Origin: Lumbricus terrestris
Taxonomy: Eukaryota; Annelida; Clitellata; Crassiclitellata; Lumbricidae
Assembly: GCA_949752735.1 (NCBI GenBank)
Contig: OX457038.1
Coordinates: 23,620,655 to 23,684,654, forward strand
Reading direction: 5' to 3'
DNA length: 64,000 nucleotides
In this document: piece by piece, positions 8,531 through 63,812 of the stretch
How the letters are laid out: every line of letters starts with the position of its first letter
Numbering within the stretch: position 1 is the stretch's first letter
Notes under the pieces: generated by a model
Database searches by the model: none
What the model saw: only the letters and a program-made list of their open reading frames with translations
What the model was told of the DNA's origin: nothing
Position numbers and translations under genes: made by a program

Positions 8531-8532
8531 TA

Positions 8533-9306
8533 CAGGGTGGGCCATAAAAAAAGACCCCCCCTAGGTTTTTTGCCAATATCTTGACCAAAAGTAAGAATTT
8601 CGACATGAAATTTTAGAGTCTTAAAGACAATTCATATTTACATTTGATGGCCAGATTTCATCAAAATATTTCAAACATACCAAAAGTTATGCCACTTTTA
8701 GGAAGGCCACCCACTGTTTTTTGACGATTCAAAAACGTAACGCAACGAAAAGTAGGTTTTTGCCAATATCTTGGCCAAAAGTAAGAATTGCGAAATGAAA
8801 TTTTACAGGTTTATAGGCAATTCATATTTACATATGATGGCCAGATTTCATAAAAATATTTCAAACAGAACAAAAGTTATATCACTTTTAGTGAGGCCAC
8901 CCACCGTTTTTTGACTTTTTTGAATCATCAAAAAACGTAGGGTGGCCTCACTAAAAGTGATATAACTTTTGATCTGTTTTAAATATTTTTATGAAATCTG
9001 GCCATCATATGTAAATATGAATTGTCTATTAACCTGTAAAATTTCATTTCGAAATTCTTACTTTTGGCCAAGATATCGACAAAAACCTACTTTTTGTTGC
9101 ATTACGTTTTTGAATCGTCAAAAAACGGTGGGTGGCCTCCATAATAGTGGCATAACTTTTGCTCTGTTTGAAATATTTTGATAAAATCTCGCCATCATGT
9201 GTAAGTATGAATTGTCTTTAAGCCTGTAAAATTTCATTTCAAAATTCTTACTTCTGGCCAGGATATTGGCAAAAACGTAGGGGGGTCTTTTTTTTGGCCC
9301 ACCCTG
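8533..9306. mobile_element. self-complementary TA-flanked MITE (CAGGGTGGGCC termini)
   Basis: Left terminus CAGGGTGGGCCATAAAAAAA and right terminus ending TTTTTTGGCCCACCCTG, flanked by TA at 8531-8532 and 9307-9308. The whole 774 bp is a foldback: two direct units of roughly 190-200 bp (each with 'GCCAATATCTTGRCCAAAAG' and 'CATATGATGGCCAGATTTCA') are followed by two inverted units. The TA target points to a Tc1/mariner-type origin. A second copy is at 62086-62863. Confidence 0.88.
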
Positions 9307-9429
9307 TAGTTTGGCCTGTAGATTTTTAAAACACAAATTTAATATTATTGAAAATATGGTGCCCACGCGAAAATTTGGGTTGCTCAAGCAACCGTCAGCT
9401 CCGCCCACACAGGAAAAATATTAGAGGGA

Positions 9430-28752: not shown

Positions 28753-29656
28753 AATTTATTAAATTAATTTATTAGCATCAGATTCTCACAGTCCTACCAC
28801 TGATTTCATTGACTGTCTCACTTCTCACCACTTTCTTCCAACAATACTCCAACCCACAAGGATAACTACTACCACAGCCACATTAATTGACAACATTTTC
28901 ACTAATTGTGCTGCATCCGTTATTAACTCTGCTATAATAGCATCTGACATTTCGGACCACCTGCCTGTTATTACTTGGGTTGAACACACCTTCAAACCTC
29001 TAAATAAATCCGGTTATCTCCAACTAACAAGAACTATTAATGACAACACCATTCTTGAATTCAGACATCTATTAGAGAATATAGATTGGTCACCCATCTT
29101 ATCTCTTTGTAGTGATAATGAAGCTGACTTAGCATACAATTTATTTGTAAAATTAATTAAACAAAATTACGACCTAGCTTTTCCTCTAAGACCAAAGTCG
29201 ACTACTAAAAGAAAAACTCCTCAAAATGCTTGGATGACTCAAGGACTGTTAAACTCTACTAAAAAGAAAGAAAAACTTTATATTAAATTTATAAAAAAAT
29301 CCCAACCCTGTAAATAAAGCCATATTTACCACCTATCGCAATAAATACAAAACTCTTCGTACAAAAATGGAACAAGATTACTATGCCAATGAATTTACCA
29401 AGTATAATGGCAACATAAAAAAAACATGGCAGTTAATTAAATCTATTGTTAAGACTGAAAATAAGGATATTCTATTAAAAGAAATAATAGTAAACGGCAA
29501 AATAATTGATGATTCTGAACTTATAGCACATACATTTAACACTCATTTTACTAATTTACCCAAACTTTTAGCACAAAAAATACCACCCTCTGTCAGACCT
29601 TACCAAGATTACATGCCAGATTCCTCACTTAATTCCTTTGCTGTCCTACCTACTTC
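28753..29656 (+). pseudogene. non-LTR retrotransposon, left part: endonuclease C-terminus and linker
   Basis: Continuous frame from about 28770: DFIDCLTSHHFLPTIL and, after a T-rich stretch, TLIDNIFTNCAASVINSAI then SDISDHLPVITW. The T-IDNIFTN...SDHLPV motifs are the end of the AP-type endonuclease domain of non-LTR elements (D and H of SDH present). The linker follows (NAWMTQGLLNSTKKKEKLY). A one-base frameshift at about 29300 separates it from 29325-29656 (NKYKTLRTKMEQDYYANEF, ELIAHTFNTHFTN). Coding breaks off at 29656 where the giant palindrome begins and resumes at 38373. The N-terminal part of the endonuclease is missing (5' truncation at about 28753). Confidence 0.85.
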
Positions 29657-29729
29657 AGTAGTGGTAATACGACAGACTAACGACCATTTTTTGCAGGGTA
29701 TGGGTACGAATAAATGGCATTTCTAGGAA

Positions 29730-30130
29730 CGGCGACTTCTAGGAAAGGCGCTTCTAGGCTTCTAGGCTTCTAGGCCACGCCTACCTAGGCTTCTAGGCCA
29801 CGCCTACCTAGGCTATAGGCTTCTAGGCTTCTAGGCCACGCATACCTAGGCTTCTAGGCTACACCTACCTAGGCTAATAGCGCTTCTAGGCTAGCCCTAA
29901 TTAGCATACGAGCTATTAGCATACTTCCAGGAACAACCTACCTAGGCTAATAGCGCTTCTAGGCTAGGCCTAATTAGCATACAGGCTACCAGCGCACTTC
30001 CAGGAACGCCCTACCTGGCTACCAGAGCTTCTAGGCCATACCTAATTAGCATACAGCTCACTAAATCACTTCCAGGAACGACCTACCTGGCTACAATCGC
30101 TTCCAGGCTATACCTAATTACCATACTAGC
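29730..30130. repeat. CTTCTAGGC / CTACCTAGGC repeat array (left arm)
   Basis: Irregular tandem of GGCTTCTAGGC, CCACGCCTACCTAGGC and AATTAGCATAC words next to the palindrome terminus. The mirror copy occupies about 37890-38290. Confidence 0.9.
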
Positions 30131-30325
30131 TACTAGCGCATCTAGAGCACATCTACTATAGCGGCGCAAGCCCCACACCGACCAGAAATGACTCAACGGA
30201 CGCGCCCAGCAGCGCATTATGGGAGCTGCACTGGCTTCCACTCCTCGGCACCCTCCCCACCATTCATTCAAATTTCAATTCCTCACATGTAAACTGAACC
30301 CTACTTAGCCGCGCAAGGCCCAACC

Positions 30326-31110
30326 CTAAATGACTCAGCATATACTCTCAACCTCCACAACCTTCCACCTCACCCTCCATTCCACCTCCTCCCCCACCCA
30401 CAATTAGCCATTTTACACACAAGACCGGCCCAAGCAGAGAACTGCGAACCCTAGAGAGCGACCAAGCAAAAGGATAGATCCCATAGGCATGACATCTTTC
30501 GCCCTCAGCAGCATTCAACCTCACCCTCCAACCCTCCATTCCACCCCTCCCCACCCACAAATATTCATTTTACACACAAGAGCAGAACATTATGAAAGCG
30601 AGAAACTTAGAGAGCGACCAATCAGAAGGCTATATCCCATAGGCACGTCATCTTTCACCCTCCACAGCATTCAACCTCACCCTCCAACCCTCCATTCCAC
30701 CCCTCCCCACCCACAAATAAGCATTTTACACACAAGAGCTGAACATTATGGAAGCGAGAAACTTAGAGAGCGACCAATCAGAAGTATAGATCCCATAGGC
30801 ATGGCATCTTTCACCCTCCACAGCATTCAACCTCACCCTCCAACCCTCCATTCCACCCCTCCCCACCCACAAATAAGCATTTTACACACAAGAGCTGAAC
30901 ATTATGGAAGCGAGAAACTTAGAGAGCGACCAATCAGAAGTATAGATCCCATAGGCATGGCATCTTTCACCCTCCACAGCATTCAACCTCACCATCCAAC
31001 CCGCCCTTCCACCCCTCCCCACCCACAAATATTCATTTTACACACTAGAGCTGAACATTACGGAAGCGAGAAACTTAGAGAGGGAGCAAACAGGAAGCTA
31101 TAAACTCTAT
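30326..31110. repeat. 156-bp tandem repeat array (left arm)
   Basis: Units begin around CCATAGGCA(T/C)G at 30481, 30637, 30793 and 30949, an exact 156-bp spacing, with degenerate units on both sides. Since 156 is a multiple of three, one frame stays open for 204 codons (30489-31103) and encodes a repeated 52-residue unit (SFTLHSIQPHPPTLHSTPPH...). That open frame is most simply a by-product of the period. The mirror array is at about 36910-37690. Confidence 0.92.
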
Positions 31111-31659
31111 ACATGACAGCTCTCACCCTCCACACGCTTCCACATCACCCTCCAACCCGCCATTCCAGCCAGCTCCACACACAAATATTCATTTTACACA
31201 CAAGAACTGGCCAATCAGAAAGCTTGAAACCTAGTTAGCAACTAATCAGAATGCGAGAAATCGCACACACACTCCACCTCAACCTCCACGCATTACCTCC
31301 ACACACACACAAATTTGGAATACATGTATAAAATTTAAGCATCTAGCAACTGCTAAATCCAAGACATGAACTCTTCAGAAGAAGATAAGCCCTACATATT
31401 TACCAAAAATATCGCCAATATTCAATATTTTATTCGAAAATATGGATATGACGGCAATATATACAATTAAATTATACTAAATTATGACAACTATTCAGCA
31501 GTTCTTACAATACTAAGCAAACTATAGCAGACAAGTGCCATTTTTCTTCTATATTTCTTCTATATTTCTTACATTTCAAGCAAGTACAAACCCAAAAACC
31601 GAAGGAACGCTCAGACAGCCTTCGCCAATATAGCTTTCTTTCTACACTTCAAGCACTCA

Positions 31660-32630
31660 CAATCTTAGAAACCAACGAATTGCTCACCCTTCCTTTCGGA
31701 AGATGGTAACATTTCTTATTTCCTTGCACACACGAACTCAAAAACCGACGAATTGCTCACCCTTCCTTTCGGAAGATGGTAACATTTCTTATTTCCTTGC
31801 ACACACGAACTAAAAAACCAACGAATTGCTCACCCTTCCTTTCGGAAGATGGTAACATTTCTTATTTCCTTGCACACACGAACTCAAAAACCGACGAATT
31901 GCTCACCCTTCCTTTCGGAAGATGGTAACATTTCTTATTTCCTTGCACACACGAACTCAAAAACCGACGAATTGCTCACCCTTCCTTTCGGAATATGGTG
32001 ACATTTCTTATTTCCTTGCACACACAAACTCAGAAACCAACGAATACTTCAACCTTCCACTCCCAAGATGGTGACATTTCTTATTTCCTTGCACACACGA
32101 ACTCAAAAACCGACGAATCGCTCACCCTTCCTTTCGGAAGATGGTAACATTTCTTATTTCCATGCGCACACGAACTCAAAAACCGACGAATCACTCACCC
32201 TTCCTTTCGGAAGATGGTAACATTTCTTACTTCCTTGAGCACACAAACTCAAAAACTGACAAATACTTCAACCTTCCAATCCCAAGATGGCGAAATTTCT
32301 AACTTTCTTGCATATACGAACTCAAAAACCGACGAATACTTCAGCCTTCCACTCCCAAGATGGTGACATTTCTCAATTCCTTGCACACGAAAACTCAGAA
32401 ACTTAAGAACCTTGCAACATTTCACGCCCAAGATGGCGAAATTTCTAACGTTCTTGCGAACACAAACTCAAAAACCGACAAATGCTTCAACCTTCCAATC
32501 CCAAGATGGCGATATTTCTAACTTTCTTGCGAACACAAACTCAAAAACCGACAAATACTTCAACCTTTTGAGTCCAAGATGGCGGCATTTCTTACTTCCT
32601 TGCAAACAGAAACCCAAAAATCGATGAATC
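31660..32630. repeat. 73-bp tandem repeat array (left arm)
   Basis: About 13 units built on CACGAACTCAAAAACCGACG, CACCCTTCCTTTCGGAAGAT and GGTAACATTTCTTATTTCC. Spacing is 73 bp at 31681, 31754 and 31827. Later units replace the middle by 'CAACCTTCCAATCCCAAGAT' and carry CCAAGATGGCG. The mirror array is at about 35385-36360. Confidence 0.92.
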
Positions 32631-32677
32631 GGATAGCAGCGCTATCAGCCGGATGCAACATGGCAACCTTTCTACAT

Positions 32678-32738
32678 CATACACACACACACACATACAC
32701 ACACACACACACACGCACACAAACACACACACATACAC
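32678..32738. repeat. (CA)n microsatellite, left arm
   Basis: ACACACACACATACACACAC run. The mirror (TG)n copy is at about 35275-35335. Confidence 0.95.
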
Positions 32739-33814
32739 AGTATTTCTTGTAAGTCTAAGTCCAGATATTCCATATATGCATCTTTCAATTCACAAGATGT
32801 CGCATCTTCAATCTTTCACACATATCCATGAAACCAAAATTCATGAAACACACACATTCTTCATATCCCTAGGTGGCGCACTAGCAACATTTATCAAAAA
32901 TGAACAAACTTCTGCTCCCAAGATGGCGCCTGCGCAACTTTTCCTGTTCGGCCATACCCAAATATCGAATACATACTGCATTTCTCATACTCATAAGGCC
33001 ATTTATCACACACACAGTCAATTTTTACGTCACAAGGTAATACACAGGCGGTCTTTTACACTAACACATACACACACAGACAACTTTCCCACTACAAGGT
33101 AATACACAGGCAATCTTTTGCACACACACACGAGAACTCTTAAAATTTGTAAGTTACAGATATATACTTTGACCAATTTTTCTAAATTAAGATAGTAAAG
33201 ACATACGAAACAGCGAAGATTGTAATATGTATAAGGTAATTGCACGAAATTCATAGCTGCAAAGTAGCAGGAATTGAACATTGGCACAGGCAAAATGATA
33301 AGTATGATAGTTGCGCGAGCGAATAGGACTTGGTTTTTCGAACTATTTCAAAGTCAGACGCATGCTATTACCAATATACGAATTCAAACAGGCAAATTTG
33401 CTAAGTATGAAATGCAGAAATTGCATGGGGAAACGTTGTAAGATGCAAAGCGTGGGGTGGGGAGAGGGGCACATTCTTCAATTTGTGGAAACAAAGGTGT
33501 TCATTGTTTGCAATATGACAGCAATTTTGGTAAAGTTAGGTTTGCAGGAAGTGTATTACATGGCTTTTTAGGGTTGAGTGTGTTAAGTTGGCGAAATATG
33601 GGATGGGGGAGAGTGTGCAGGCTTAGATTTTGCGGAAACAAAAGATGTGACTCACATGCGATGAGTCATCGATTTCAGCAAAGTGCGATTATAGCGAGCG
33701 AAGAATGCAAGCTAGGGTTGCCAGCGGCATATTACAAGGTGAATTAGGTGTAGCGGACACGCGCAACTTGGTCGAAACCTGTATTCGACAAGTCGAAAAC
33801 GCTAAGTTCCGAAA

Positions 33815-34195
33815 TTTTTGCAGGGCAAATTCGCGCGGCGGCGGTCCCCTTCGTGCGCTGCGGCGGCGGCGGCGCTGCACCCCGGCCCACTCGGGCGACT
33901 TCGGCTCCTGCGGCGTGGTGACGGCCGCGGCATGCGCGCCCAATCGATCGTGCTTTGACTCGTATGAAGCTAAAGTCTCATGCGTATTGTGGGTTATGGA
34001 AATTATTGAAAGATTTGTGCCGGGACGTAATCGACTTTAGCTTGTACGGGTCAAAGCTTGATCTAATTGGGTGCGCATGTTGCAGCCGTCGCCACGCCGC
34101 TGGAGCCGAAGTCGCCCGAGTGGGCCGGGGTGCAGCGCCGCCGCCGCCGCAGCGCACGAAGGGGACCGCCGCCGCGCGAATTTGCCCTGCAAAAA
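33815..34195. repeat. GC-rich CpG-dense core and loop of the palindrome
   Basis: Two inverted GC-rich blocks (about 33825-33945 and 34070-34190; CGGCGGCGGCGGCGC, GGCCCACTCGGGCGACTTCGG) flank the centre. Complementarity weakens inside 33945-34070, and the unpaired loop is about 33977-34030 (GCGTATTGTGGGTTATGGAA and onward). Frames of 84-111 codons here (33689-34321) are mirror images of each other and show no domain. The composition contrasts sharply with the AT-rich arms. Confidence 0.8.
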
Positions 34196-35382
34196 TTTCG
34201 GAACTTAGCGTTTTCGACTTGTCGAATACAGGTTTCGACCAAGTTGCGCGTGTCCGCTACACCTAATTCACCTTGTAATATGCCGCTGGCAACCCTAGCT
34301 TGCATTCTTCGCTCGCTATAATCGCACTTTGCTGAAATCGATGACTCATCGCATGTGAGTCACATCTTTTGTTTCCGCAAAATCTAAGCCTGCACACTCT
34401 CCCCCATCCCATATTTCGCCAACTTAACACACTCAACCCTAAAAAGCCATGTAATACACTTCCTGCAAACCTAACTTTACCAAAATTGCTGTCATATTGC
34501 AAACAATGAACACCTTTGTTTCCACAAATTGAAGAATGTGCCCCTCTCCCCACCCCACGCTTTGCATCTTACAACGTTTCCCCATGCAATTTCTGCATTT
34601 CATACTTAGCAAATTTGCCTGTTTGAATTCGTATATTGGTAATAGCATGCGTCTGACTTTGAAATAGTTCGAAAAACCAAGTCCTATTCGCTCGCGCAAC
34701 TATCATACTTATCATTTTGCCTGTGCCAATGTTCAATTCCTGCTACTTTGCAGCTATGAATTTCGTGCAATTACCTTATACATATTACAATCTTCGCTGT
34801 TTCGTATGTCTTTACTATCTTAATTTAGAAAAATTGGTCAAAGTATATATCTGTAACTTACAAATTTTAAGAGTTCTCGTGTGTGTGTGCAAAAGATTGC
34901 CTGTGTATTACCTTGTAGTGGGAAAGTTGTCTGTGTGTGTATGTGTTAGTGTAAAAGACCGCCTGTGTATTACCTTGTGACGTAAAAATTGACTGTGTGT
35001 GTGATAAATGGCCTTATGAGTATGAGAAATGCAGTATGTATTCGATATTTGGGTATGGCCGAACAGGAAAAGTTGCGCAGGCGCCATCTTGGGAGCAGAA
35101 GTTTGTTCATTTTTGATAAATGTTGCTAGTGCGCCACCTAGGGATATGAAGAATGTGTGTGTTTCATGAATTTTGGTTTCATGGATATGTGTGAAAGATT
35201 GAAGATGCGACATCTTGTGAATTGAAAGATGCATATATGGAATATCTGGACTTAGACTTACAAGAAATACTGTGTATGTGTGTGTGTTTGTGTGCGTGTG
35301 TGTGTGTGTGTGTATGTGTGTGTGTGTGTATGATGTAGAAAGGTTGCCATGTTGCATCCGGCTGATAGCGCTGCTATCCGAT

Positions 35383-36360
35383 TCATCGATTTTTGGGTTT
35401 CTGTTTGCAAGGAAGTAAGAAATGCCGCCATCTTGGACTCAAAAGGTTGAAGTATTTGTCGGTTTTTGAGTTTGTGTTCGCAAGAAAGTTAGAAATATCG
35501 CCATCTTGGGATTGGAAGGTTGAAGCATTTGTCGGTTTTTGAGTTTGTGTTCGCAAGAACGTTAGAAATTTCGCCATCTTGGGCGTGAAATGTTGCAAGG
35601 TTCTTAAGTTTCTGAGTTTTCGTGTGCAAGGAATTGAGAAATGTCACCATCTTGGGAGTGGAAGGCTGAAGTATTCGTCGGTTTTTGAGTTCGTATATGC
35701 AAGAAAGTTAGAAATTTCGCCATCTTGGGATTGGAAGGTTGAAGTATTTGTCAGTTTTTGAGTTTGTGTGCTCAAGGAAGTAAGAAATGTTACCATCTTC
35801 CGAAAGGAAGGGTGAGTGATTCGTCGGTTTTTGAGTTCGTGTGCGCATGGAAATAAGAAATGTTACCATCTTCCGAAAGGAAGGGTGAGCGATTCGTCGG
35901 TTTTTGAGTTCGTGTGTGCAAGGAAATAAGAAATGTCACCATCTTGGGAGTGGAAGGTTGAAGTATTCGTCGGTTTCTGAGTTTGTGTGTGCAAGGAAAT
36001 AAGAAATGTCACCATATTCCGAAAGGAAGGGTGAGCAATTCGTCGGTTTTTGAGTTCGTGTGTGCAAGGAAATAAGAAATGTTACCATCTTCCGAAAGGA
36101 AGGGTGAGCAATTCGTCGGTTTTTGAGTTCGTGTGTGCAAGGAAATAAGAAATGTTACCATCTTCCGAAAGGAAGGGTGAGCAATTCGTTGGTTTTTTAG
36201 TTCGTGTGTGCAAGGAAATAAGAAATGTTACCATCTTCCGAAAGGAAGGGTGAGCAATTCGTCGGTTTTTGAGTTCGTGTGTGCAAGGAAATAAGAAATG
36301 TTACCATCTTCCGAAAGGAAGGGTGAGCAATTCGTTGGTTTCTAAGATTGTGAGTGCTTG
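35383..36360. repeat. 73-bp tandem repeat array (right arm, inverted)
   Basis: Exact mirror of 31660-32630, read as GTCGGTTTTTGAGTTCGTGT units. Confidence 0.92.
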
Positions 36361-36909
36361 AAGTGTAGAAAGAAAGCTATATTGGCGAAGGCTGTCTGAG
36401 CGTTCCTTCGGTTTTTGGGTTTGTACTTGCTTGAAATGTAAGAAATATAGAAGAAATATAGAAGAAAAATGGCACTTGTCTGCTATAGTTTGCTTAGTAT
36501 TGTAAGAACTGCTGAATAGTTGTCATAATTTAGTATAATTTAATTGTATATATTGCCGTCATATCCATATTTTCGAATAAAATATTGAATATTGGCGATA
36601 TTTTTGGTAAATATGTAGGGCTTATCTTCTTCTGAAGAGTTCATGTCTTGGATTTAGCAGTTGCTAGATGCTTAAATTTTATACATGTATTCCAAATTTG
36701 TGTGTGTGTGGAGGTAATGCGTGGAGGTTTGGAGGGTGAGGTGGAGTGTGTGTGCGATTTCTCGCATTCTGATTAGTTGCTAACTAGGTTTCAAGCTTTC
36801 TGATTGGCCAGTTCTTGTGTGTAAAATGAATATTTGTGTGTGGAGCTGGCTGGAATGGCGGGTTGGAGGGTGATGTGGAAGCGTGTGGAGGGTGAGAGCT
36901 GTCATGTAT

Positions 36910-37690
36910 AGAGTTTATAGCTTCCTGTTTGCTCCCTCTCTAAGTTTCTCGCTTCCGTAATGTTCAGCTCTAGTGTGTAAAATGAATATTTGTGGGTGGG
37001 GAGGGGTGGAAGGGCGGGTTGGATGGTGAGGTTGAATGCTGTGGAGGGTGAAAGATGCCATGCCTATGGGATCTATACTTCTGATTGGTCGCTCTCTAAG
37101 TTTCTCGCTTCCATAATGTTCAGCTCTTGTGTGTAAAATGCTTATTTGTGGGTGGGGAGGGGTGGAATGGAGGGTTGGAGGGTGAGGTTGAATGCTGTGG
37201 AGGGTGAAAGATGCCATGCCTATGGGATCTATACTTCTGATTGGTCGCTCTCTAAGTTTCTCGCTTCCATAATGTTCAGCTCTTGTGTGTAAAATGCTTA
37301 TTTGTGGGTGGGGAGGGGTGGAATGGAGGGTTGGAGGGTGAGGTTGAATGCTGTGGAGGGTGAAAGATGACGTGCCTATGGGATATAGCCTTCTGATTGG
37401 TCGCTCTCTAAGTTTCTCGCTTTCATAATGTTCTGCTCTTGTGTGTAAAATGAATATTTGTGGGTGGGGAGGGGTGGAATGGAGGGTTGGAGGGTGAGGT
37501 TGAATGCTGCTGAGGGCGAAAGATGTCATGCCTATGGGATCTATCCTTTTGCTTGGTCGCTCTCTAGGGTTCGCAGTTCTCTGCTTGGGCCGGTCTTGTG
37601 TGTAAAATGGCTAATTGTGGGTGGGGGAGGAGGTGGAATGGCGGGTGAGGTGGAAGGTTGTGGAGGTTGAGAGTATATGCTGAGTCATTT
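36910..37690. repeat. 156-bp tandem repeat array (right arm, inverted)
   Basis: Mirror of 30326-31110 with GGGTGGGGAGGGGTGGAATG units. The 204-codon frame recurs on the minus strand with an identical sequence. Confidence 0.92.
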
Positions 37691-38372
37691 AGGGTTGGTG
37701 TGGGCCTTGCGCGGCTAAGTAGGGTTCAGTTTACATGTGAGGAATTGAAATTTGAATGAATGGTGGGGAGGGTGCCGAGGAGTGGAAGCCAGTGCAGCTC
37801 CCATAATGCGCTGCTGGGCGCGTCCGTTGAGTCATTTCTGGTCGGTGTGGGGCTTGCGCCGCTATAGTAGATGTGCTCTAGATGCGCTAGTAGCTAGTAT
37901 GGTAATTAGGTATAGCCTGGAAGCGATTGTAGCCAGGTAGGTCGTTCCTGGAAGTGATTTAGTGAGCTGTATGCTAATTAGGTATGGCCTAGAAGCTCTG
38001 GTAGCCAGGTAGGGCGTTCCTGGAAGTGCGCTGGTAGCCTGTATGCTAATTAGGCCTAGCCTAGAAGCGCTATTAGCCTAGGTAGGTTGTTCCTGGAAGT
38101 ATGCTAATAGCTCGTATGCTAATTAGGGCTAGCCTAGAAGCGCTATTAGCCTAGGTAGGTGTAGCCTAGAAGCCTAGGTATGCGTGGCCTAGAAGCCTAG
38201 AAGCCTATAGCCTAGGTAGGCGTGGCCTAGAAGCCTAGGTAGGCGTGGCCTAGAAGCCTAGAAGCCTAGAAGCGCCTTTCCTAGAAGTCGCCGTTCCTAG
38301 AAATGCCATTTATTCGTACCCATACCCTGCAAAAAATGGTCGTTAGTCTGTCGTATTACCACTACTTACTTC

Positions 38373-39899
38373 CTTCCATGAGCTAATAACTATTAACAAA
38401 ACCCTTAAAGACACCTACAGTACCGGTGCTGATGATTTGAATCTGCACATATTGTCTTCTCTTATGGACTTATTAGCTTCTCCACTTAGTGAAGTGATAA
38501 ATTGTTCACTTAGAACTGGAATAGTTCCGTCTGACATAAAATTAGCACAAATTACACCCATTTATAAACAAGGAAATAAAAATGAGGTTTCAAATTTTAG
38601 ACCGATTTCTATACTACCGTTTTTTTCTAAATTGTTTGAGAGGGTAATGTATGACCGCCTTTACTCCTTTATTAACCAGAACAAAATTTTGTACCCTTTT
38701 CAACATGGCTTTCAAAGAGAACACTCGACCTTCATGTCATTGCTGGATATACAAGACAAAATATCTCAAGCTATGGATAATAATGAATATTCCATCGGCA
38801 TTTTTCTTGATTTAGCTAAAGCGTTCGATACCGTTAACCATAATATCCTGCTAAATAAACTTGAGAATTACGGGATCAGAGGTATTGCACTTACATGGTT
38901 CACAAATTACTTAAATAACCGTTACCAACAAGACTCATGTAATGGGAAATGATCCAGCTTTCAAAAGATTGATTTTGGGGTCCCCCAGGGCTCAATCCTA
39001 GGGCCTCTTTTATTTCTAATATACATAAATGACCTTCCTAATTCTGCAACATTTTTACATTACATCCTATTTGCTGATGATTCAAAAGCTTTTTACTCTC
39101 ACTCCTCTTATGAACAATTAATTAAAATAGCAAATAACGACCTAGAAATGGCCAGTGAATGGTTCAAAGCCAATAAGCTTTCACTGAACATAGCCAAATC
39201 TAATTATATAATTTTTAGATCTAGTAAAAAAAAATTGCTCCACCTCCTGATAATAACCTACTAATTGAAAATGTTTCATTACCGCAAGTATACTCATCTA
39301 AATTCCTGGGTGTACATATCGACCAGCACTTAAAATGGAATATACATACAGCTGAACTGTCTAAAAAAATCTCCAAAAATATAGGCATAATTCACAGAAT
39401 ATCCTATCTTCTTCCACTACATATACTAAAATCATTATATTTCACACTTAAACACCCATACTTAAGTTATTGCAATCTCATTTGGACATCTACATATGAC
39501 ACTCACCTAACTAAGCTAAATAGACTGCAGAAAAAAGCCATAAGAATTATTACTAAATCTCCCTTTAATGCTCACACTAGCCCCTTATATCATCAGTTGA
39601 ACGTGCTAAAAATATCACAAATTAAATTCATCCAAACTAGTACATTTATGTATAAATATGATAACAACTTTCTTCCACTTGCATTCTCATCCTATTTTAG
39701 ACCTAACTTATATGCTAAAGGCATTAGAAATAATAGAATCTATAGAAGCGTCTTTGCTAAAACGAACACTAGAAAGTTTTCCATTAAGTATCAGGGTCCT
39801 CTTTTATGGAATAATATACCGGAAAATATTCGTACATCCAGGAGTCTCGATCGATTTAAATCCCAAATCCGTGCACACACATTAAAAAATATAAAATGA
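38373..39899 (+). pseudogene. non-LTR retrotransposon, right part: reverse transcriptase
   Basis: Continuation of 28753-29656 after the palindrome. RT blocks in order: NFRPISILPFFSKLFERVMY, QHGFQREHST, IFLDLAKAFDTVNHNILLNK (motif A), then a stop at 38950, GVPQGSILGPLLFLIYINDL (motif B), LFADDSKAF (motif C, both D intact), frameshift near 39232, SKFLGVHIDQHLKWNIHT (thumb), LSYCNLIWTSTY, RLQKKAIRII, LLWNNIPENIRTSRSLDRFK and a stop at 39899. A 3' UTR with CCCTTCGGGTAGCC follows and ends at about 40290 with an AAGTTGAAGTTGAAG tail. CR1/jockey-like by motif style. Two lesions in the RT make it inactive. Confidence 0.88.
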
Positions 39900-48359: not shown

Positions 48360-49800
48360 ATTAAAGGCCGAGGTTGACATTCCAGATTCTCTCTGTAAAC
48401 CAGACACGTGACGCCTTCAGTAGGCATGACAAAATAGAGACCTGCTGACCAATCAACCTCTGCTTCAAGTTCACCTGAAACCACTGACCACTGCTATAGA
48501 TTGCTGGCTGTCTAAACTGGATCGAGGACAATTGTCCACCCAAGATATCTAGACTCCCCTGAGTGGGTATTTGTATGCAGACTAGCTTGGCCTACCAGCG
48601 CTTGGTGCTGTCTTGATCTCAGGGTATACCATGTGTACCTGTGTTTGTATACATATTGCAGAGATTCACCTCAGTTGGGCCATGGTGCTTATATATTTTA
48701 GTATCTCAACTGGTCAGCCTTGCCATACAGAATATATATATATATATATATGCCTTATGTACTTGTTCCTTGCATGGTTGCATGCATCACAATCCGTAAG
48801 GGATTTGATATTATTAGACATTGTCTAAGCCTTGTAACTACTTGTAAACTCTCCACCCCTACTCCACCAATAAAATCAGTCCAGTGTTAATTGCAATGAA
48901 TGTGCACATTACGCCTATAACAGAACTCTTGGAGTTTGTGTTGTTGGAACCATGCAAAAGTAGGACATGCAACTTTTTGTGGATCGGTCAGACAGACGTT
49001 CTATAAAAGTTCGCATGGTTCCAGCTGCTGCAACTCCCATCGGTGTGTACAGTATATTGTCTTATGGAAGAAAAGACACAAATGATAAGAAACGGATATA
49101 GTGGGTGAATAAAGCAATTTATGAACTCCAAGACTCTTGCAACGATCAGCTTCTGACAACAAAAGAAAGGACGCTGGAATAAACTGTGGAATGGCATTTC
49201 AAAATACATGTGTTGTCACATACCGATCATTCTATATAATTATTCGTAATGCTGACCAGTTGAGATACTCGAATATAAACATCCAGGCCCATTGTGAGGT
49301 GCATAGAATGATCAAACACCCGCACACACACACGCACACACATGTAAATACCCATAGACAGAGACATGCAAACACAGGTCGTATACGTGAAGGTAAAGAC
49401 AGAACCAGGCGCTGGAGGTAGGCTAAGCTAATCTGCATGCAGATACCCACCGGGTGGACAATTGTCCTCGACCAAGTTTAGTCAGCCTAACTATCTAGAA
49501 AAGTGGTCAGTGGCAAGATTCTTTCAATCTGATCTTGGGTCAGTGGTACACACACGCACAGGCACACACAGGCCGTATACGCCAAGCTAATCTGCATAAG
49601 GTACCCACTCAGGGGAGTCTATAGAGGTCTTCGGTGGACAATTCCTCAACCTGGTTTAGATAGGCTATAGCTATCTATAGCATCGGTCAGTGGTTTCAGT
49701 TGCACTTGAAGCAGAGGCTGATTGACAAGCTGGTCTCTATAGGTCACGCCCAGTTTACAGAGGGAATCTGGAATGTCAACCTCGGCCTTTAAGGGACTTA
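48360..49800. repeat. 1.4-kb inverted repeat with ~230-bp arms
   Basis: 48365-48600 (AGGCCGAGGTTGACATTCCA ... GGACAATTGTCCACCC ... CTCCCCTGAGTGGGTA) reappears inverted at 49570-49795 (ACTCAGGGGAGTCT ... GGTGGACAATTCC ... GAATCTGGAATGTCAACCTC). A third, partial copy lies at 49415-49530. The spacer contains TA and CA microsatellites and several short frames. No TSD or coding potential was recognised. Confidence 0.7.
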
Positions 49801-50170: not shown

Positions 50171-50439
50171 CTTTATTCAGAAAGAGGTCTATGGCCTGGT
50201 TCAGCTCCGCCAAGACCTCCTACATCACACAGCTGAATATGATGGCTGAGGACCGCAAGAGTAAACTCAAAAGCAACAGCTAAAATTTATTGATAATTAT
50301 TAACAGTAATGAAATTTATTATATACACAATTACACACGCCATGTTTTGAATGATTTTTAATGTCTCCACACCAAAAAGTTATTAAGGTCCTCAAAGCGG
50401 GCGGCTGAAGAGGCGGTCCATTCAGATGTGGTCGGGGCG

Positions 50440-50705
50440 TACATCAAGGCAATACTCTGACCGCCATCATATTCAGCTGTGTCATGTAGGAGGTCTTGGC
50501 GGAGCTGAACCAGGCCATAGACTTACTTACTGCAAATCTCTGAATGGCGGTGGCCATGGCCGGATTGGCAACCCATGGATCCTCCTTTGGGTCAGACCCT
50601 TTGGCAAAGATGTTAGTATCATCAACAAACAATTAATTTCAGTGTGGTGGCACTTTGTAAATCATTAGCGTAAAGAAAAAACAGTAAAGGTACCATAACT
50701 GAGCC
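50440..50705 (-). pseudogene. RT motif B/C fragment
   Basis: Minus strand: GSVMVPLLFFLYANDLQSAT (50700-50640; motif B, normally GSVLGPLLFLLYINDL), then after a one-base shift FVDDTNIFAKGSDPKEDPWV (50632-50575; motif C, FVDD). The next part (LFxSAKTSYMTQLNMM) is nearly repeated at 50160-50250, so the fragment is partly duplicated. Confidence 0.6.
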
Positions 50706-52739: not shown

Positions 52740-54617
52740 CTGCAAAAGAAACAGCATAAAATTTAAATTAAAAAAAATTACAAAATGTTATTTTCAATGT
52801 TACACGTGCTGATTTCTCGATAATACATAGAAAATCAATGGTCAATCTAAACTTATATCCATGTCAGATTAACAAATTTGGTGGCCCTCTTCAGCAAAAC
52901 TGAGGAGCCTCAACCCACGGAATTACAGCAAAAGGACACATAAAATGTGTTATATTCAGTGACAGGATATTTGAGAAATGCCAACATGTCATAATTAAAT
53001 GTAAATCTTCTCAAGTTATCCACGCTTTAAAAAGTAAGTCAGTTAGGGTGTTTCTAAGGTACATGTGAAAATTTCAGCTAAATGATTTTTTATCGACCAG
53101 ATGAAATTATCGTGTAAACTAAATATCAAAAATTATATTGGGCGAGCTGAACATTTACGACTTGCTCAAGAGGACTGAAGTTAAGAACTCGGTTGCATTG
53201 CAAGTATTCTATCTACGATTTCAATACATGCAAGTCATAAGCTATAGAACACTTCTCAAACAGGCCCGCCGACAGAAATTCCGGGCCCCTGGGCTGAGTA
53301 GTCACGGGCCCCAAACTATCTTTAGGGTTTTTGAGCAAATTTACACAAAAACAAATAAAAATAACAATAGTGTGGGTACGCTGATGCTTGCATTTATGAT
53401 TTTAATCAGTTCTTAATGTTAAGAATTTAATTTTCAAATAATATGGTAATCAACAAGCAACAGTTCTGGATTTAACTGCAACAATATCTCTTATAATATC
53501 AGTATCCTGGTATAGTTCACTGTCTTGTCTGCGAACCTGAAAAATTAAAATTCTTTGTAATCGTCTGAATACATTAATCTCATGGTTAAAGGAACTTTAT
53601 AACCACATTTTTTGGGCTTGATTGTCTCATTTCTAGAACGGCAAAGCTTTACATTAAATGACAAAAAACACTGTTAGATACTTTGGTACACTGATTTTTA
53701 AAAAAAACGAACATTATCATTTTTTAACTTGCACAAATTTTTCGTTTTTGGTGCGTAATTTTTTCAATTTTTTGCGCAAATTTCAGGGGGCCTAACTTAA
53801 TAGCAGCAACTTTCCCTGATATCTTGTTCTCTCTCACAGTGCGAGACCTTGGAATAACTTTTGATCAAGAGCAGTGATATTTTCATTAACGATAAGTGAA
53901 ATTAGAACTGAAAATATTGATTTCCGCTAAGTATAACTGAAACTGTAGGTGAAATTATTTTAAGAACGAAAACTGAAATAGAATGGAAATTAAGCACACT
54001 GAATGAAAATTAGAATAAAAATGAAAATTAATTCTCAAGCTGAAATTAATTTTTTTTAAATTAAAAATTTAGTTGACAGTCTTTCCAATGCAGTTGTGTT
54101 TAGAAGATGCACCGGTACTTTCTGACTCTTAAAACTTTTGTATTTTGGCCTAGCTTGTGCTTCCATGTGTAATTTATTATGGTCATTTTAAAATAATTTT
54201 TCATTTGGACTTGGTTAGGTGAAAATCACTTGGCTAAATGACAAAAATCATGTCGCTTTAAGACTTTAAGTAGGCCTACTGCAAAGAAACGGACAAGTGC
54301 GGAACTGCCTCTTTTGATAAAATTTAAACATAATGGGTAGGAGGCGATGCTTGAGTAATAATTACTATCGTTGTCATGCAAGCAATAACGAATGCTTAAA
54401 ACTTTGACCAAAACTTGCTTTTTAAAAAAAGAAATACAGTTTCCAGGACCATCCAATACCATATTGGAGGTAAAATTTATTATGTAGTAGACTCGACTAC
54501 AAGAAATGAACACAAGTAGTTTTTCACATTCCTTGACACCTTTGCATACCACTGCGTACATATTGGGAAACACTGAGGATAAATTACAAAATCTTAATGT
54601 AAACACGAACCACTTAC
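52740..54617 (-). other. intron between exons 1 and 2 of the CCCH/RWD gene
   Basis: Runs from donor GTAAGT (54617-54612, minus) to acceptor TTTTGCAG (52740). It holds a repeat with CAGGCCCGCCGACAG and GGGCCCC words (53262-53340) and ACTGAAAAT-type simple repeats (53870-54060). A possible alternative 3' exon lies at about 53539-53450: TTTTTCAG, then VRRQDSELYQDTDIIRDIVA and a stop. Confidence 0.65.
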
Positions 54618-55547
54618 CCAATCTGGGTCAGTGCATGAAAAGACGAATTGGAATATAGACTGGTCATCAAAAGAAACGTCTTTTGCAAGTGGATACCTCT
54701 TTTTCAGTTGCTCAATTTCTATTCTTCGCAAGTCTTTTGGTCGTTCTTCGGCTATATCTTTAGTGCTAAACCACCGATTTCTTTCAGATGCAGCAATTAA
54801 AATCTTTCCTTCTGTGTCTGTTTCACTGATTGTATCGACAGGCAAATCTTCTCCTTTACATCTTGCAAAGAAGTCTTCCACCAAACCAGAGTCAGATGAT
54901 GTCTCACTATTACCTCCAAAAGCAAATGACAGTGCGCTGGTCTTGCTCTCATTTAAACGTGATCTCATAGTTGTAAATGGATTGCTCTGTAATGTGGAAG
55001 TAACGTGTTTAAACCGACATCTCTGACCGAATCTGCAAAAGCCAGCCTTATAGAACCTACAGAGTTTTCTGGAACTTGGAAAAGTAGTTTGATTCATATT
55101 TGAAGAGGAAGCCAATTTACGCTCCTCTTCAGGCAAGCTTTCTGCCATAATTTCTCCACCTGCAATCGCATTGCACTTTGCTGAAGCTGTGTCACATTTC
55201 TGGACTTTCCTTGTTGCAGCAGATTGTTCTGATCGAGCAACAGCATGGGAGTACTTACATTCCCTTCCGAACCTACACCAGCCTCTCTGCAGGAAATAGT
55301 TGCAAATTGGTAGGCTAAAATTACTCTTTTCATTTTCAGAAAAGCAGGTTCTACTTATATTACTAGTATTCCTTGTATCTCTTTTGAAGTTGCCATGTAA
55401 CCCTGACACATCTTGCTTCGACAAATCATCATGACCTGTATCACTTAAGTGAAGATAGCGACAATGTTGTCCTCTAGCACACTGTCCACTTGCAAAGAAC
55501 TGACAAGTTGGGCGACTGTAAACAGAATTTGACTTTGAATCACACAT
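54618..55547 (-). CDS. CCCH/RWD protein gene, exon 1: three CCCH zinc fingers
   Basis: 310 codons from ATG at 55547, with an in-frame TGA seven codons upstream, to the consensus donor TGG|GTAAGT. Three CCCH fingers: C15-x7-C23-x5-C29-x3-H33, C82-x8-C91-x5-C97-x3-H101 and C163-x7-C171-x5-C177-x3-H181. The linkers are polar and low in complexity, suggesting disorder. From about residue 270 an RWD-like domain begins (RRIEIEQLKKRYPLAKDVSF, then FQFVFSCTDPDW). CCCH fingers of this spacing usually bind RNA; RWD domains bind proteins, often in ubiquitin or translation pathways. I do not recognise the ortholog. The frame is intact, the composition differs from the surrounding repeats and phase is conserved into exon 2, so it is probably a real host gene. 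A non-coding upstream exon cannot be excluded. Confidence 0.85.
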
Positions 55548-55879
55548 AACTTTCTCCTTAACTTCTCTATGTCAGTACTTTTCAAGCTTGTCCGGCCAGC
55601 AAAGCACAAATCTGCTTCAACTGTAATTCTAAAACCAGAAATAATGCACATACATTATATCATGAACACCAGCAATTTACACAAGAAAGCAAAAAGTGCT
55701 AAGTTATATGTGACAATTTGCATTTTAAAACTTACACAATTGTGATGAAAGCGTTCTTTTCCCGTCGTTTGTCGGGATCTAGATAGAGAGTTAGAAGGCA
55801 AAACATGCGAGAGGGGTAAAAAATATTGAAAATTGTTTTATGGTGTATATTTATTCAGAAATATGTCTACTTTAAATAT

Positions 55880-61904: not shown

Positions 61905-62085
61905 AAAATAATGGTGTATGTCCAGTAACACAGGTTTAAAAAATTGGGTAGGTAGGTAGAATTGTTTAAAATCTTTATAAAATATTTTTATAAAGTGACT
62001 ACTCAAGAAATTAAGCCACTGCCCTTTTTTGCACAAAGGTACATGCTGGAAAAAACTGACGAAGGCACTGAGACGAAGGTACATA
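61905..62085. mobile_element. fragment of the 44229-45003 repeat family
   Basis: AAAAAATTGGGTAGGTAGGT and GTGACTACTCAAGAAATTAAG, then TTTTTTGCACAAAGGTACAT, match 44275-44395 closely. It is truncated at 62085 by the TA-flanked MITE. Confidence 0.7.
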
Positions 62086-62863
62086 CAGGGTGCGCCAAAA
62101 AAAAGACCCCCCCTAGGTTTTTTGCCAATGTCTTGGCCAAAAGTACGAATTTCCAAATGAAATTTTACAGTCTTAAAGACAATTCATATTTACATATGAT
62201 GGCCAGATTTCATCAAAATATTTCACACAAAGCAAAAGTTATGCCACTTTTAGGAAGGCCACCCACATTTTTTGACGATTCAAAAACGTAACGCAACAAA
62301 AAGTAGGTTTTTGCCAATATTTTGGCCAAAAGTAAGAATTTCAAAATGACATTTTTACAGGCTGATAGACAATTCATATTTACACATGATGACCGAAATT
62401 TCATCAAAATATTTCAAACAGAACAAAAGTTATATCACTTTTAGTGAGACCACCCTCGGTTTTTTGGATGATTCAAAAAACGTCAAAAAAGGTGGGTGTC
62501 CTCACTAAAAGTGATATAACTTTTGTTCTGTTTGAAATATTTTAATGAAATTTCGGTCATCATGTGTAAATATGAATTGTCTATCAGCCTGTAAAAGTTT
62601 CATTTTGAAAGTCTTACTTTTGGCCAAAATATTGGCAAAAAACTACTTTTTGTTGCGTTACGTTTTTGAATCGTCAAAAAACGGTGGGTGGCCTCCCTAA
62701 AAGTGACGTAACTTTTGTTCCTTTTGAAATATTTTGATGAAATCTGGTCATAATGTGTAAATATGAATTGTCTATAAGCCTGTAAAATTTCATTTGGAAA
62801 TTCTTACTTTTGGTAAAAATATTGGCAAAAAACCTAGGGGGGTCTTTTTTTTGGCGCACCCTG
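62086..62863. mobile_element. second self-complementary TA-flanked MITE
   Basis: CAGGGTGCGCCAAAAAAAAG at left and CTTTTTTTTGGCGCACCCTG at right, TA on both sides (62084-62085, 62864-62865). It has the same four-unit foldback plan as 8533-9306 (two direct, two inverted units) and is 778 bp against 774 bp there. Confidence 0.9.
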
Positions 62864-62865
62864 TA

Positions 62866-63812
62866 GATTGGAGAGGCTTATAGGAAATCTATATATGAAT
62901 CAAACAGTCAGGATAAGACTAGAAGGGTAGTGCTCAGAAGAAGGAGCACTTCCCAAGTAGCAGAAGGAGTAGGGGGGTGAGGCAAGGGTGTTCGCTGTCA
63001 CCACTCCTATTTAACATATACATAGAGGAACTGATGCAAGAGGCAATGGAACAGACAGGAGAGGGCATAAAAGTGGGTGGAACACTCATAAGAGCCCTGA
63101 GATTTGCCCACGACCAGGCAATGCTGGCGACCACACAGGAGCGGCTGCAGAAATTGATGGATCAACTAAACAGGACCTCAATAAAATATAACATGAAGAT
63201 AACTATTGGAAATACAAAGATCATGAGGATAAGTGGTGGGGAGGAGATAGCAATGAGAATAACAATAAATGGAGAGGAGGTGGAACAGGTCAGGAGCTTC
63301 TGCTACTTGGGAAGAATAATAACAACAGATGCAAGATGCCATAGTGATATAAAACGAAGAATAGTATTGGGAAAAGATGCGTTCACGTAAAGAGACGAGT
63401 TGATGAGAGGAGGGTTGAGCAAAGACCTAAAGAACAGACTTGTCAAAGTACTGGTATGGAGCGTGGTACTGTATGGGTCAGAGGCATGGACTATCAGGAA
63501 AGAGGATAGCAAGAGACTGGAAGCCTTCGAGATGTTGATATGTAGAAGGATGGAAAAGGTGAGCTGGACGGAGGTGACAAATGAAGAGGTGCTGCAAATA
63601 GTAGGAGAACAAAGATCACTGATGACAACTTTAAGAGAAAGGCAAAAGAACTGGATTGGACACATACTAAGAGGAGACTCCCTCCTGAGAGAAATCATAG
63701 AAGGGAGATTGGAGGGGAAAAGAAAGAGAGGAAGACTGAGGCAGATGATGCTGGGATGGATGATGTCTGAAGGAAACAGCGCACTGAAGAGGAAAGCACA
63801 GCGAAGCACATA
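62866..63812 (+). pseudogene. RTE-like reverse transcriptase, 5' truncated
   Basis: From 62866 (out of frame) LIGNLYMNQTVRIRLEG, then in one frame VRQGCSLSPLLFNIYIEELM (motif B), RALRFAHDQAMLATTQERLQ (motif C, normally FADDQ; the first catalytic Asp is His, CAC at 63109-63111), YNMKITIGNTKIMRI, VRSFCYLGRIITTDARCHSD. An in-frame TAA at 63388-63390 interrupts, then VLVWSVVLYGSEAWTIRKED, RLEAFEMLICRRMEKVSWTE, RQKNWIGHILRGDSLLREII and EGKRKRGRLRQMMLGWMM follow. This is the RTE/craniofacial-development-protein-2-like class. The catalytic change and the stop make it inactive. Confidence 0.9.

Follow-up and report, generated by a model that had tools for sequence, protein, structure and literature searches.

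In a 64-kb window of the Lumbricus terrestris genome (C4:23620655-23684654, the whole stretch of 64,000 nucleotides analysed here) a near-perfect 8.7-kb palindrome interrupts a long interspersed nuclear element (LINE). We propose, with a probability of roughly 0.6, that this palindrome is a non-autonomous palindromic satellite of a Polinton-type family that is replicated in trans and whose arms are equalised by snap-back copying at a central core. The palindrome belongs to a mobile family with common ends, a 6-bp target-site duplication (TSD) and, in other members, a polymerase gene; its arms change in lockstep, and the conserved core is spared from this equalisation. Polintons, also called Mavericks, are seen as a root of many eukaryotic DNA viruses, and their mode of replication is mostly inferred. 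In the family described here replication seems to be readable, since the ends are equal within a copy and unlike between copies, the arms keep step with each other and the hairpin is exempt from copying.

Structure of the palindrome and its insertion site

When the window is compared with itself, the whole 8710 bp of 29657-38366 return as a single minus-strand self-match of 98.96% identity, with the termini AGTAGT...ACTACT. A preliminary description, made from the letters of the stretch, had reported such a palindrome with AG...CT ends, a flanking 6-bp duplication of TACTTC and arms of about 4.3 kb, and this is borne out by the self-match, the flanking repeats and the empty site described below; the arms measure 4.25 kb each. 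The substitutions between them lie at 30376 and 32039 and the indels at 30319 (5 bp) and 31280 (8 bp), while all remaining mismatches are confined to 33909-34101. The earlier account of the centre held in part: tandem repeats are present and no gene is recognised, but what had been taken for a mere GC core is an imperfect hairpin with stem arms of about 71 bp and a loop of about 50 nt, in a centre region of about 190 bp. The DNA fold of 33905-34105 reaches -70.4 kcal/mol (z = -12.8 against 200 shuffles).

No protein family was recognised in ten scanned open reading frames (ORFs) of the palindrome, one sub-threshold match being taken as chance, and for the 231-aa ORF in the 156-bp repeat none of the 7994 candidates scored reached E 1e-3. 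Simple-repeat matches aside, the 64-kb window holds no second copy, and exact scans of viral_contigs with the terminus, the 73-bp unit and the GC core gave 0 matches each. Rfam gave nothing at gathering threshold in the window; two mirror-image SCARNA7 matches over a GT repeat (44.5 bits, E 1e-7, gathering threshold 65) were taken as chance. The strands of the palindrome are strongly asymmetric: the G/C skew lies between about -0.2 and -0.56 in the outer part of the left arm, changes sign in the inner part and is mirrored in the right arm.

Excision of the element and one TSD in silico joins the reverse-transcriptase frame of the LINE. This frame is also kept on removing 0, 3 or 9 bases, so that the frame test alone leaves the TSD length unfixed; comparison sets the TSD of the window copy at exactly 6 bp and excludes 7 bp. 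The junction is crossed by 46 of the 120 homologues listed for the right LINE flank; 40 are free of gaps within about 12 residues of it, and 6 are gapped. The LINE protein P0006 covers 72% of the right flank at 99% identity and runs through the join at 97%, again ungapped. Because LINE homologues read through the empty site, the TSD and the ends belong to an insertion, and a read turned on itself during assembly is contradicted. Missed adapters are a known source of long artefactual palindromes, and the preliminary description had allowed for an assembly artefact. However, the flanks are unlike each other, a TSD and an empty site are present, and other gene-less copies lie with TSDs of their own at other loci, so that, as far as the assembled sequence can tell, an artefact is hardly credible.

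Copies in the genome share ends and target-site duplications

A search of the 1,056,305,194-base assembly (331 contigs) with the first 300 bp of the element returned 54 matches at 23 loci, the window copy included, and the 22 others were fetched. With 40 of 260 candidates scored there are at least 23 copies, and the split into 5 gene-less and 18 coding copies described below is valid for that sample only. In all 21 copies with both ends located (L026 and L029 have one end each unlocated) the TSD is perfect, exactly 6 bp long and different from copy to copy, a 7-bp TSD being found in none, and the ends AGTAGTG//CACTACT directly adjoin it. The ends were sought by these motifs and their recurrence is thus partly built in; among 19 copies with self-matches computed independently of the motif, the match starts at AGTAGT to the base in 10, and in 5 others its start lies 1-11 bp further out. 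The likeness to Polinton/Maverick ends and TSD length that had been remarked on for the window copy therefore recurs in every copy that could be judged. The preliminary description had also reckoned with a palindrome that is alone in the genome, or with copies that have other termini or TSD lengths; at least 22 further copies were found, and the TSD is exactly 6 bp throughout.

In 20 of 21 copies the two ends agree with each other, with 0-3 differences in their first 227-235 bp, whereas the median difference between copies is 6%. In adenoviruses the inverted terminal repeats undergo end-to-end correction at each replication round, and an adenovirus-like correction of this kind would yield matching ends within copies. 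A few recurring variants are found among copies at end positions 8-31, and positions 36-90 are nearly invariant; positions 8-31 are a possible specificity region for a terminal protein or integrase. The recurring variants at these positions combine differently from copy to copy. The coding copy L025 (C6:16416400-16426390) has unlike ends, with 95 of 186 aligned bases different, yet a perfect 6-bp TSD (AGTAGG), and is a natural case in which to test the need for matching ends.

Polymerase-coding and gene-less copies

Eighteen of the 23 copies carry a polymerase gene and lack the core, while the other five (the window copy, L018+L019, L021, L023 and L028) have the core and lack the polymerase. 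The prediction of full-length elements between such ends was thus right for the type B polymerase; a retroviral-type integrase, which had been expected beside it, was not recognised in the scanned ORFs. Read from stop to stop, the polymerase ORF has 1114-1120 aa in 13 of the 18 copies and 1036 and 1084 aa in two, and it is broken in L022, L025 and L026. A 600-aa piece of the polymerase matched PF03175 (DNA_pol_B_2) in 7 of 7 tested copies (1.3e-18 to 3.1e-20). The ratio of nonsynonymous to synonymous changes (dN/dS) has a median of 0.107 and a range of 0.069-0.512 (15 ORFs longer than 1000 aa, 105 pairs); judged by these codon changes, the polymerase is under purifying selection. In a crude selection count the polymerase frame alone stands out clearly (0.10-0.11). 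Many other frames, among them antisense ones, also gave values under 0.6, so that this count does not single out genes among the small ORFs and was used for the polymerase only. The coding copies are 7.7-9.6 kb long in 15 of the 16 with both ends located, and one is 11.7 kb. A PHROGs search gave an endonuclease VII-like piece only, and relatives of the polymerase in viral_contigs were not confirmed. A PDB sequence search with the polymerase ORF gave ankyrin as best match (4.1e-5) and no polymerase, which was taken as chance.

The gene-less copies share only the outer part of their arms with the coding ones: 484 bp in the window copy, 1351 in L018, 534 in L021, 460 in L023 and 243 in L028. Their inner arms and core were not found in the coding copies; a sensitive search with the inner arm gave 228 matches, the best 40 of which were of CA-repeat type or left-over terminal sequence, and shuffled arms gave 0. 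With terminal inverted repeats (TIRs) of about 450-550 bp in the coding copies and only these outer 243-1351 bp in common, the earlier idea of a derivative made only of TIR sequence does not hold. Terminal positions 22-393 of the window copy are 99.7% identical to the coding copy L009, whereas the window copy and its closest palindrome, L023, agree at 92% in the outer 1.36 kb and at 98.6% in the inner arm. Since the ends of the window copy are nearer to a coding copy than to a palindrome, ends move between the gene-less and the coding kind.

These comparisons bear on two further explanations. The preliminary description had offered an undescribed foldback class, which would use its own unrelated cut-and-paste transposase and share its ends with the coding copies by coincidence or capture. 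Arms made of tandem repeats do resemble foldback elements generally, and no gene is recognised inside, but the ends, whose identity to polymerase-coding copies reaches 99.7%, and the equal TSD length make this very improbable. Snap-back (copy-back) deletion of a coding copy could also produce each palindrome anew, as happens with the defective genomes of linear replicons. The common ends are in line with this, as is L018, which has coding left-end sequence in both arms: its arms are 100% identical over the outer 1500 bp, and both hold a segment that the matches listed place near the non-polymerase end only in 16 of 16 coding copies, as if, to go by the assembled letters, one arm had served as template for the other. 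However, the core is present in all five gene-less copies and in 0 of 18 coding copies, and the inner arms match among several palindromes and not the coding copies beyond terminal and CA-type repeats. Because core and inner arms are common to the palindromes and missing from the coding copies, they form one lineage and not a series of repeated accidents, and we regard fresh derivatives as improbable. The artefact, the repeated one-off derivatives and the unrelated foldback class were rejected, each on the evidence given with it.

Lockstep arms and a spared core

Outside the centre, substitutions between palindromes are found mostly in both arms at once. Symmetric and one-arm substitutions number 77 to 9 between the window copy and L023, 505 to 23 between the window copy and L021, and 477 to 24, plus 1 other, between L023 and L021; L018 and L028 with their runs of N are omitted from these counts. 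Without homogenisation most arm substitutions would be expected in one arm. Differences between the two arms of a copy pile up in the central 250 columns, with 25 substitutions against 2 elsewhere in the window copy, 25 against 5 in L023 and 14 against 2 in L018 (2500 columns of which are N). Across the five copies, left sides of the centre differ from left sides, and right sides from right sides, by 0-11%, whereas left and right differ by 15-23%; as like sides resemble each other, the central asymmetry is inherited. The 133-bp core differs at 0-3 positions, while flanks at least 100 bp away differ by up to 11.7%. Ten pairs, not independent of each other, were compared; in the six most divergent the flanks differ by 10.5-11.7% and the core at no more than 3 of its 133 positions (p 2e-4 to 8e-4).

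The main rival of snap-back copying is gene conversion by the host, which would equalise the arms of inserted copies of the same family and fail near the axis, so that the core is spared. The lockstep changes and the spared centre fit this explanation too, and a patch in L021, with 12 arm differences in one window, is what incomplete conversion would leave. The slow, asymmetric conservation of the core, however, remains unexplained by it, and so does the match between the two ends of a coding copy, which lie about 8-9 kb from each other: in 15 of 16 such copies they show 0-2 differences across their first 235 bp, against the median of 6% between copies. We therefore consider gene conversion an unlikely source of the equal arms.

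A model for the replication of the palindrome

In the satellite model that we favour, the polymerase from coding copies would act in trans, probably protein-primed and starting at the AGT-doubled ends. Strand displacement would free a single strand, which might fold back at the core. If incomplete or nicked, the strand would then be finished by extension from the core stem, the 3' arm copying the other arm. Every such cycle would equalise the arms, and the primer hairpin, which would not be recopied, would keep its mismatches. The core might instead, or also, be a protein-binding site or a start site for the second strand. Insertion is predicted to need an integrase of Polinton type that is encoded at another place in the genome.

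Several observations weigh against this model, and the fit of gene conversion to lockstep arms and spared centre is one of them. PF03175 was matched neither by the whole polymerase ORF, in any of the three copies tried, nor by a 719-aa C-terminal piece, and one polymerase piece of L022 reached just 22.7 bits (cut-off 25.8); the pieces of 600 aa alone exceeded the cut-off, which we take for a putative speed-filter quirk. Integrase, capsid, protease and ATPase were not recognised by Pfam in the scanned ORFs of coding copies (mainly L009; also L010, L015 and L024), although a spliced or very divergent integrase gene could escape such a scan, and the rest of the genome was not searched for one; the integration step is therefore without an identified enzyme. 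The core of L028 is off-centre as assembled, and the arms of L018 and L028 are only partly read because of long runs of N. In L021 the arm differences are not clearly gathered in the centre, which has 8 of them while 18 lie elsewhere, 12 of these in the patch mentioned above, a single 250-column window. Of the core comparisons, the remaining 4 of 10 give weaker p values (0.009, 0.012, 0.059 and 1).

Two side observations concern the same copies. The runs of N span 1768-4267 in L018 (exactly 2500 bases) and 136-5135 in L028 (exactly 5000 bases). An Integrase_H2C2 match in L019 (25.1 bits, cut-off 25.5) lies in the ORF of the 156-bp repeat and was taken as low-complexity chance.

A more specific version of the model is tentative. 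The palindrome might be a self-complementary satellite, a 4.3-kb hairpin with the core as internal turn-round primer, that combines protein-primed and hairpin-primed steps; its partner might be a polymerase-only Polinton that has neither capsid nor integrase and borrows the latter, which would make a dependence of three tiers. Such a polymerase-only layer, if true, would separate replication from integration. The family is also a natural non-autonomous substrate for testing protein-primed transposon replication.

Features of the window

Coordinates of the palindrome, its parts and the interrupted LINE (window positions)
Feature	Position	Strand	Remarks
Host LINE upstream of insertion	28763..29656	+	two frames
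TSD TACTTC, left copy	29651..29656	.	6 bp
Left arm	29657..33908	+	2 substitutions, 2 indels from right arm (arm-versus-arm alignment)
Left terminus	29657..29692	+	AGTAGTG, then positions 8-31 variable among copies, equal at both ends in 20/21
Terminal region common to polymerase-coding copies	29657..30140	+	arm positions 1-484; mean best identity 97.8%; CTAGG-rich short tandem repeats
156-bp tandem repeat, 5.4 copies	30372..31209	+	open frame 231 aa
73-bp tandem repeat, 12.2 copies	31669..32556	+	
Imperfect central hairpin	33909..34101	.	left/right asymmetry common to all five gene-less copies
Conserved 133-bp core	33939..34071	+	CCCAAT...ATTGGG
Right arm	34102..38366	-	reads as left arm on minus strand; holds arrays 35454-36341 (73-bp) and 36809-37646 (156-bp)
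TSD TACTTC, right copy	38367..38372	.	direct repeat of left copy
Host LINE downstream of insertion	38373..39899	+	RVT_1, 8.9e-18

Elsewhere in the window, two palindromic elements of about 780 bp (8531-9314 and 62084-62871) are about 89% identical, with the ends TACAGGGTG...CACCCTGTA and 190-bp internal repeats; this element looks like a TA-target miniature inverted-repeat transposable element that is unrelated to the 8.7-kb palindrome. An element of about 1.4 kb at 48361-49792 has TIRs of 40 bp at 97.5% and an inner repeat of about 165 bp at 81%, and an inverted repeat of 70 bp at 94% spans 355 bp at 50178-50532. A CCCH zinc-finger ORF with three fingers lies at 54594-55571 on the minus strand, with two homologues (68-69%) among the matches listed.

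Comparison with known systems

In the relevant passages of the work on vertebrate Mavericks, the commonest end motif is 5'-(AGT)2//(ACT)2-3', with a 6-bp TSD and TIRs of 46-1447 bp, and intact elements are 12.7-24.6 kb long with eight conserved ORFs, seven in Xenopus (PMC8097293). The family described here resembles them in its 6-bp TSD, its (AGT)2//(ACT)2 ends, its matching TIRs and the DNA_pol_B_2 domain of the coding copies. In contrast, the coding copies are shorter and the polymerase is their only recognised gene. Their TIRs fall inside the vertebrate range, whereas the 4.25-kb arms of the palindrome lie outside it, and the palindrome has no polymerase while the 18 coding copies that share its ends do. 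Because it has the ends and the TSD of a Polinton and neither the polymerase nor the published vertebrate TIR length, we class it as a non-autonomous relative and not as a Polinton. Among the titles and abstract starts listed from the open-licence PMC literature, a scope that excludes subscription papers and Repbase, no palindromic or non-autonomous Polinton is described.

IS3EU and GingerRoot elements also have a 6-bp TSD, but their termini, in the sections concerned, are given as TA..TA, in GingerRoot occasionally TG..CA (PMC10045372). The termini of the palindrome, AG..CT, are unlike these, and the agreement with that account is one of TSD length.

Foldback (FB) elements such as Galileo and Tetris, as far as excerpts of their descriptions go, likewise have long inverted repeats with tandem arrays; they differ in partner enzyme and ends, and the present element is palindromic over almost its whole length, around a hairpin core that is conserved. 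The transposases of other foldback superfamilies (P/Galileo, Mutator-like) make TSDs of 7-9 bp, lengths that the 6-bp TSD of the palindrome does not match. In self-complementary or copy-back linear replicons, for example self-complementary adeno-associated virus (scAAV), an inverted duplication is joined by an imperfect hairpin that can prime the copying of one half from the other. The palindrome has the same layout, an inverted duplication around an imperfect hairpin that would be able to prime copying of one half; unlike these replicons, however, it belongs to an inherited chromosomal transposon lineage with Polinton-type ends.

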